Assembly: GCF_014652875.1 (NCBI RefSeq)
Contig: NZ_BMZQ01000001.1
Span: forward strand, 434,001 to 498,000
Direction of reading: 5' to 3'
Length of the DNA: 64,000 bases
DNA from: Tianweitania populi
Lineage (GTDB): Bacteria > Pseudomonadota > Alphaproteobacteria > Rhizobiales > Rhizobiaceae
The translations under genes and the position numbers were made by a program. The notes under the pieces are model-generated. The model was not told where the DNA came from and did not search any database. It saw nothing but the letters and a program-made list of their open reading frames with translations. Positions within the stretch are counted from its first letter, which is position 1. Each line of letters begins with the position of its first letter. Below, one piece after another: positions 55,362-62,595 of the stretch.

Positions 55362-55425
55362 CGGCCGGGACGACCCGGCTTATCACAGACATGGATGGGG
55401 ACGACCTCATCGCCTCTCATAGGAG
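55362..55425 (+). promoter_or_regulatory. Guanidine-II (mini-ykkC) riboswitch
   Basis: Two hairpins with identical ACGA loops: GCCGGG-ACGA-CCCGGC at 55364-55379 and GATGGGG-ACGA-CCTCATC (one G-U pair) at 55394-55411, joined by a 14-nt linker. The AGGAG ribosome site of sugE follows at 55421-55425. Paired stem-loops with ACGR tetraloops define the guanidine-II class, known to turn on guanidinium exporters of the SugE/Gdx type. Confidence 0.92.
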
Positions 55426-62130: not shown

Positions 62131-62464
62131 TTGCCTCGTGCCCCTGCTTATGTCGGTCTAGGTATCAGAACGCGTCAGCCAGATACGCATGACCTTGCGC
62201 TTCCACCCATGATCCACAGCATGTGAACAGCCGGCCATAAAGACATTGACCGTTGCACCCCGTCAGCCATAACTGAGTCGAGAACAAGAACAAAACAGGA
62301 ATTGGTTGGCGTGGTTCGGAACCACGCGTTTCGTTTTCGAAGGCAGAAGCAGCAGCGCCAGCCAGCCGGCGCACCGGGGAAGATGGGCTTCCTCGGCTGC
62401 GGCAACAGCCTTGCCTTCGGATGGAGGTGACGATGATGTGGTTTATACCACTAAACGTCAGCTT
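62131..62464. other. Non-coding region upstream of dnaB
   Basis: About 330 bp without a credible gene. An open frame at 62175-62405 on the minus strand has no ribosome site and resembles nothing. A 9-bp inverted repeat GCGTGGTTC/GAACCACGC lies at about 62309-62327. The dnaB promoter should be here unless transcription comes from the strong promoter at 62567-62595. Confidence 0.35.
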
Positions 62465-62562
62465 TGAGATGAAGAGGACCCGGAGCGGCTGGCATGTCGT
62501 ACTCCGGGTCCGTATACTTCTCTAAGCACAACGGGAGGTAGGCAGCAACCTGCCTCCCACCT
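62465..62562 (-). ncRNA. Candidate small RNA (or dnaB leader) with two stem-loops
   Basis: Starts just downstream of a consensus promoter. The first hairpin (62533-62558) pairs GGGAGG with CCTCCC and has an alternative AGGCAG-GTTG-CTGCCT form. The second (62476-62511) has a perfect 10-bp stem GGACCCGGAG/CTCCGGGTCC with a 16-nt loop, then UCUUC. The RNA holds a CCUCCC stretch of the kind rhizobial antisense-SD small RNAs use. The 3' end is uncertain because the U-tract is weak. I could not match it to a named family. Confidence 0.5.
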
Positions 62563-62566
62563 CCAT

Positions 62567-62595
62567 ATTATAGTGGCGATCTCTGAAAACGTCAA
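62567..62595 (-). promoter_or_regulatory. Consensus sigma-70 promoter TTGACG-N17-TATAAT
   Basis: On the minus strand the -35 TTGACG (62590-62595) and -10 TATAAT (62567-62572) are exactly 17 bp apart. It lies 21 bp past the cfa stop. The start point should be near 62560-62562. No start codon with a ribosome site follows, which points to a non-coding RNA or a long dnaB leader. Confidence 0.75.

Follow-up and report, generated by a model that had tools for sequence, protein, structure and literature searches.

The window analysed here, a stretch of 64,000 nucleotides of the Tianweitania populi genome, contains a 487-bp gap between cfa and dnaB, for which an earlier note had proposed a small RNA gene. 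The two strands of this gap carry the following features.

62336..62421, plus strand: structured 5′ leader of the sense mRNA, with P1 (62336–62345 paired with 62412–62421), P2, P3 and a pseudoknot (covariation in 55 leaders)
62423..62427, plus strand: Shine–Dalgarno (SD) sequence GGAGG of the small ORF (sequence; an SD-like motif is seen in 108 of 110 homologous units)
62433..62525, plus strand: small ORF with 30 codons when counted from the first ATG and 29 when counted from the second (62436), encoding the peptide MMWFIPLNVSFEMKRTRSGWHVVLRVRILL followed by a stop codon (family profile)
62558..62564, plus strand: CACCTCC, complementary to the SD sequence and closing the predicted 5′–3′ lock of the sense mRNA (fold of window positions 62337–62564, z −8.3)
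62567..62595, minus strand: TTGACG-N17-TATAAT, the sigma-70 promoter from which the antisense RNA would start (matching the consensus at 11 of 12 positions)
62462..62560, minus strand: predicted antisense RNA of about 95–99 nt (median predicted length 96 nt in 93 units)
62533..62558, minus strand: stem-loop 1, which opens the antisense RNA as its 5′ hairpin and closes the sense mRNA as its 3′ hairpin (fold)
62476..62511, minus strand: stem-loop 2, a hairpin within the ORF that is terminator-like on this strand, with its U-rich tail opposite 62470–62475

The earlier note had seen no coding signal in this region, but the plus strand has an SD sequence and a 30-codon ORF (62423–62525), and the homologous ORFs vary in the way that protein-coding sequences do. 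A profile search of 82 stretches, made up of a hand-chosen set of 80 from the profile matches (four of them from T. populi), the window and locus L006, has yielded 111 family ORFs. A start codon is present in 110 of them (ATG in 107, GTG in two and TTG in one), and counts over these 110 units are non-independent because the units were found by their peptide and close tandem copies are included. The ORF of the second copy in the T. populi genome starts with GTG. The peptide is exactly 29 residues long in 71 of the 110 ORFs. Diversity at the first, second and third codon positions is 0.38, 0.27 and 0.49, respectively, among the 106 ORFs of 26–36 residues, so that the third position is the most variable and the second the least, and a dN/dS-like ratio is 0.35 over 672 non-independent ORF pairs. 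As judged from this comparison of sequences, the overlooked small ORF is a gene under protein-level selection.

The 70 distinct peptides encoded behind the leader pattern in genomes and viral contigs have a mean length of 29 residues, a charge of +4.8 and a GRAVY value of 0.32. AlphaFold2 modelling of the peptide with 38 sequences gives a β-hairpin with strands at residues 6–16 and 19–28 (mean pLDDT 83, pTM 0.33). By its GRAVY value, its charge and this model, the peptide lies outside the membrane class of type I toxins, which is defined by a hydrophobic α-helical transmembrane peptide. There is no significant match to the peptide in Pfam or NCBIfam (best NCBIfam E 0.21, 38 peptides scanned) or in PHROGs (best E 0.26, five peptides scanned), and there is no sequence match to it in the PDB. 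The start of the ORF (62438–62451, plus strand) also forms a small hairpin, GTGGT..ACCAC, which encodes WF-P and is visible by eye in other copies too; the N-terminal motif of the peptide may partly reflect a constraint on the RNA.

The leader upstream of the ORF has a structure in which the loop of P3 pairs with the strand just before the 3′ side of P1 to form a pseudoknot. In an alignment of 55 leaders, 87.5% of the cells are paired, 215 cells are compensatory compared with 61.8 after shuffling, and two-sided changes are found at 24 of the 26 pairs. When the structure is slid along the alignment, at most 51% of the cells are paired, a comparison that somewhat favours the unslid version because the window copy served as the template for the structure. 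The pseudoknot itself covaries: one of its pairs is GC in 36 leaders and AU in 18, and another is CG in 29 and UA in 12 and is unpaired in 11 of the 55. R1, a covariance model of the leader, finds exactly the six copies of the unit in the T. populi genome. Just 5′ of the leader, the window copy has a perfect palindrome, GCGTGGTTCGGAACCACGC followed by GTTTCGTTTT (62309–62336, plus strand), which is terminator-like and may shield or silence this copy.

Searches with the leader show what lies behind it in other genomes. A search with the RNA alone picks out 25 of the 397 genomes of the order, including T. populi. The peptide is found behind the leader (E < 1e-3) in 17 of the 22 leader loci outside the family, including one that is frameshifted (L153) and one that is cut short (L164); the other five comprise three loci with a divergent 29-residue peptide (L157, L159 and L166), one with a weak match (L161) and one with none (L155). 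The three divergent peptides, MSRxRWxLEVxLxKxADRWxxTVRIxF in shorthand, share the same leader and represent a second peptide type. A leader DNA pattern of low sensitivity (it recovers 22 of the 110 known units) is present in 101 stretches of public genomes, 80 of which were used, and in 13 viral contigs. The peptide lies behind this pattern in 64 of the 86 genome matches and in all 14 viral matches. Among the 22 matches that lack the peptide, 13 are outside Hyphomicrobiales by record title, and the covariance model accepts three (L193 and L225, which are cut by the stretch end, and L194, which has a broken peptide), the rest having E values of 0.1 or worse. A class-wide search matches, beyond T. 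populi, one of 385 genomes, and only weakly (E 4e-4). Pattern and peptide also occur together on three contigs of one Maricaulis MAG and on one contig of another (L209, L210, L226 and L252), outside Hyphomicrobiales, possibly through transfer or a binning error. The compact pseudoknotted fold and the conserved loops would suit a ligand-binding riboswitch with the peptide merely as its small regulated product, but the RNA-only searches place the leader before either this peptide or a relative with the same number of residues, no convincing leader precedes another gene (leaving aside L155 and those sites that a stretch end interrupts) and no ligand is known, which makes a riboswitch quite improbable.

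The SD sequence appears to be concealed by the other end of its own mRNA. In the fold of the window mRNA with its proper end, GGAGGU is paired with ACCUCC, and at least three-quarters of the SD bases are paired with the last 10 nt in 54 of 76 folded units, a count for which the automatic end point is too short in some units, that of the window among them. The probability that the SD sequence is unpaired is 0.20, rising to 0.54 without the last 6 nt and to 0.36 when these are shuffled; variation is too small for covariation between the SD sequence and the 3′ motif to be seen by eye. An mRNA fold that hides the ribosome-binding site, which is common although not universal in type I systems, is thus found here in silico. 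Of 107 units, 42 have a −10-like site 22–24 nt upstream of AAGCAG, compared with 8–15 for eleven other 3-nt windows, and no conserved −35 is visible on the sense strand, so the sense promoter looks weaker than the antisense promoter. No TATA-like −10 is seen by eye at the usual distance in the window copy, which may therefore be silent.

The near-consensus TTGACG-N17-TATAAT that the earlier note had called rare is present at 62595–62567 on the minus strand and is the sole match to TTGACN-N16..18-TATAAT in the window, where 0.01 would be expected per shuffled window. The two strong stem-loops that it had placed in the roughly 100 nt downstream of this promoter are borne out as well, with an MFE of −48.8 kcal/mol that is far lower than that of shuffled sequences (z −4.0, none of 200 shuffles as stable). 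When the antisense promoter is defined as minus-strand TTG-N19..22-TANNNT, at most 110 nt downstream of the stop codon and shortly before a GGAG-like start, it is found in 95 of the 110 units, whereas 20 dinucleotide shuffles average 1.4 and never exceed 4, and both control placements have none. Five of the six copies in the T. populi genome have it; as so defined it is absent from 15 units, including the sixth copy. The spacer between the hexamers has almost no information content, and the match between the window copy and the second copy begins about 5 nt upstream of the predicted antisense transcription start. An antisense RNA ended at the second stem-loop would be 91–114 nt long, with a median of 96 nt over 93 units, and would lie opposite the second half of the small ORF and the hairpin downstream of it; a G+C-rich inverted repeat at the place of stem-loop 1 is visible by eye in most of the units printed. 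The short antisense RNA from the promoter at 62567..62595 looks real as a prediction.

The hairpin within the ORF is conserved beyond what the encoded amino acids demand. Pairs between two third codon positions are Watson–Crick in 268 of 306 cells, compared with 170 ± 7 under a codon-preserving null in which codons are permuted among sequences with the same amino acid, and one pair of this hairpin is GC in 57 sequences and CG in 45, unbroken in 102. On 46 antisense sequences, 95% of the cells of the helix are paired, and 50 cells are compensatory against 15.5. The arginine codons just outside the stem are AGA or AGG in 63 of 82 cases, whereas the rest of the ORF sequence has them at 37 of 333 arginines and four genes of the window at 7 of 135, and therefore a U-rich stretch follows the stem on the antisense RNA; 83 of 105 antisense RNAs have at least four U residues in the first 7 nt past the stem. 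The hairpin and its U-rich tail match the needs of an intrinsic terminator on the antisense strand, where transcription would probably terminate. Both parts of an antisense RNA with a promoter of its own, the promoter and the terminator-like hairpin, are thus conserved at the level of sequence. The overlapping stretch folds more stably as sense than as antisense RNA (mean z −6.4 versus −4.9, with the antisense MFE lower in 13 of 93 units), and so the hairpins may serve either strand. At one pair there is one sense G–U where 12.8 are expected and 16 antisense G–U compared with 31; these wobble counts are only suggestive of the antisense strand, and fold stability points the other way.

The small RNA of the earlier note survives as a predicted short RNA of about 90–110 nt, which probably ends at stem-loop 2 and lies outside Rfam, but not as an independent trans-acting sRNA, since it is cis-antisense to a conserved ORF and the unit recurs at other loci. 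The strong conserved promoter and the short two-hairpin RNA would fit a trans-acting sRNA to which the ORF is incidental, and the antisense RNA could pair with sister copies too; such a reading is very improbable given an ORF with an SD sequence under protein-level selection and a strongly covarying sense leader. The Rfam comparison that the note suggested has been carried out: among Rfam families, none reaches its gathering score in this region or in nine sister loci, and two permissive scans, the first of which gave four hits in the region, return sub-threshold hits only. A weak plus-strand hit to the HDV ribozyme, with 25.6 bits where the gathering score is 50, was rejected by eye because its 5′ strand falls outside the part common to the sister copies. 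Coding selection and leader covariation rule out a plain RIME/REP palindromic repeat. At 55362–55409 on the plus strand, the window has a Guanidine-II (mini-ykkC) riboswitch with 37.4 bits, above the gathering score.

Six copies of the unit are present in the T. populi genome, and a search with the stretch and a protein search with the ORF (E ≤ 0.005) find the same six. A profile of five copies has matches (E ≤ 0.01) in 55 of the 247 genomes from this family, T. populi among them, and tandem units on the same strand with a spacing of 310–425 bp, typically around 350 bp, occur in 20 of the 82 stretches of the chosen sample. The gap between cfa and dnaB is only about 200 and 230 bp long in two congeneric genomes, G001 and G002, and contains no leader match. 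The earlier note had offered a structured 430-nt dnaB leader as its alternative; the conserved unit is not a dnaB leader because these two genomes lack a copy between cfa and dnaB, and the other five copies lie elsewhere. Its place and direction in the window are what would favour a dnaB leader or a cfa 3′ element, whose probability we regard as almost negligible for the same reasons; read-through into dnaB is possible.

The consensus peptide is encoded in 44 plasmid records, mostly of Sinorhizobium, Roseibium/Labrenzia, Agrobacterium and Rhizobium and also of Microvirga, and in 16 phage records, 14 of which cover at least 80% of the query. Other named carriers are Phyllobacterium, Aureimonas and environmental Brucella/Ochrobactrum. 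Laboratory material with a copy includes S. meliloti GR4 with its plasmid pRmeGR4a, and Rhizobium etli CFN42 once infected by the phage RHEph10. Among 40 of the 44 plasmid matches, for which the gene table is incomplete, nothing is annotated under the peptide in 39 and one record has no annotation; among the 16 phage matches, nothing is annotated in 13, another comes from an unannotated record, and the remaining two, weak matches in Myxococcus (E 7), lie in a hypothetical protein. At two loci (L175 and L177), a short hypothetical CDS has been called over the leader instead. The full leader is present in 13 of 14 fetched plasmid or phage loci; the fourteenth, on pSymA of S. meliloti T073 (L173), has an intact ORF with a truncated leader (R1 17.9 bits) and represents a natural state of decay. 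Neighbours of the plasmid and phage copies include RepC, ParB, a Tn3 transposase, and phage terminase and portal genes, and a freshwater phage contig (L170, MW462191.1) has two tandem leaders between its portal and terminase genes. By these searches, the unit is shared by the chromosomes, plasmids and phages of Hyphomicrobiales and is lineage-specific at cfa–dnaB.

These features lead to the hypothesis that the self-contained unit of about 285 bp is a type I toxin–antitoxin-like module, in which a toxic peptide would be kept off by an antisense RNA. We consider this reading probable, with the toxicity predicted from the arrangement of the locus: a weak sense promoter and a strong convergent antisense promoter, overlap at the 3′ part of the ORF, the SD lock, tandem copies, and presence in plasmids and phages. 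Like type I loci, it has a short ORF with a ribosome-binding site. The usual type I toxin is a hydrophobic helix, and the unit is called type I-like, outside the membrane class, because its architecture fits type I but such a helix is missing. The architectural criteria come partly from PMC8309996. An antisense-controlled peptide of the same anatomy could instead have a regulatory or accessory role by binding a target in the host or in a phage, as might happen in phage–host or plasmid–host conflict. The cationic and non-helical nature of the peptide, its presence in phages and plasmids, and an elaborate conserved leader that could sense a signal are in line with such a non-toxic role, which nevertheless seems rather unlikely, as tandem arrays, mobility, the predicted SD lock and a strong convergent antisense promoter are more like type I loci.

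In the type I-like module, the plus strand would give an mRNA about 230 nt long. This mRNA would combine a knotted leader with an SD sequence paired to its own 3′ end and would encode a cationic β-hairpin peptide of about 29 residues. The strong sigma-70 promoter just downstream would give an antisense RNA of about 95 nt, reaching from the 3′ hairpin across the second half of the ORF to a terminator formed by ORF codons. Together, this RNA and the fold of the mRNA would hold the peptide off by pairing, and loss of the locus or a drop in the antisense RNA would release the peptide, which in excess would most likely inhibit the cell at the membrane or at nucleic acids. Somewhat short of an even chance is the fuller proposal of a new module family with a cationic β-hairpin toxin, a leader acting as sensor or timer and an antitoxin terminator within the toxin codons, shared by phages, plasmids and chromosomes of Hyphomicrobiales. 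If the type I-like reading is true, rhizobia and their relatives (Sinorhizobium, Rhizobium, Phyllobacterium, Aureimonas and environmental Brucella/Ochrobactrum), together with plasmids and phages, would have an RNA-controlled toxin family, and type I toxins would extend past membrane helices. A new pseudoknotted mRNA leader would become available for study, and a single stretch of DNA would be under simultaneous selection for its protein code, for an RNA hairpin and probably for an antisense terminator. A literature search of titles and abstract openings, with preprints, supplements and most subscription papers outside its scope, returned no type I system in Hyphomicrobiales, and PMC5082802 deals with different sORFs, sRNAs and REPs.

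Parts of this arrangement are found in known systems. The rhizobial alpha-r sRNA families are short RNAs transcribed from sigma-70 promoters in Rhizobiales, and the predicted antisense RNA is like them in length and promoter, but the region matches no Rfam family at gathering score. In the Bacillus type I systems TxpA/RatA and BsrG/SR4, the antitoxin RNA converges on the toxin mRNA and overlaps its 3′ part, and the toxins are membrane helices; the convergent 3′ overlap, predicted for the rhizobial unit, is the point of likeness, and the systems are set side by side here by architecture alone. In Hok/Sok and AapA1/IsoA1, which are multi-copy, pairing between the 5′ and 3′ parts of the mRNA holds translation off. 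The rhizobial unit shares the multiple copies and, by prediction, the 5′–3′ pairing with these two systems, whereas its peptide belongs to another class and its leader is pseudoknotted and covarying. According to PMC8309996, the Hok mRNA refolds following processing of its 3′ end, and the E. coli type I system ZorO/OrzO has a 29-residue peptide, duplicated loci, an RNA antitoxin and a 5′ UTR structure that conceals the ribosome site. ZorO/OrzO and the rhizobial unit are alike in peptide length and multiple loci and, by prediction for the rhizobial unit, in a concealed ribosome site and an RNA antitoxin. ZorO is a hydrophobic membrane peptide, whereas the rhizobial peptide is a predicted cationic β-hairpin, and, unlike in ZorO/OrzO, the predicted rhizobial antisense RNA is convergent and seems to end inside the ORF.
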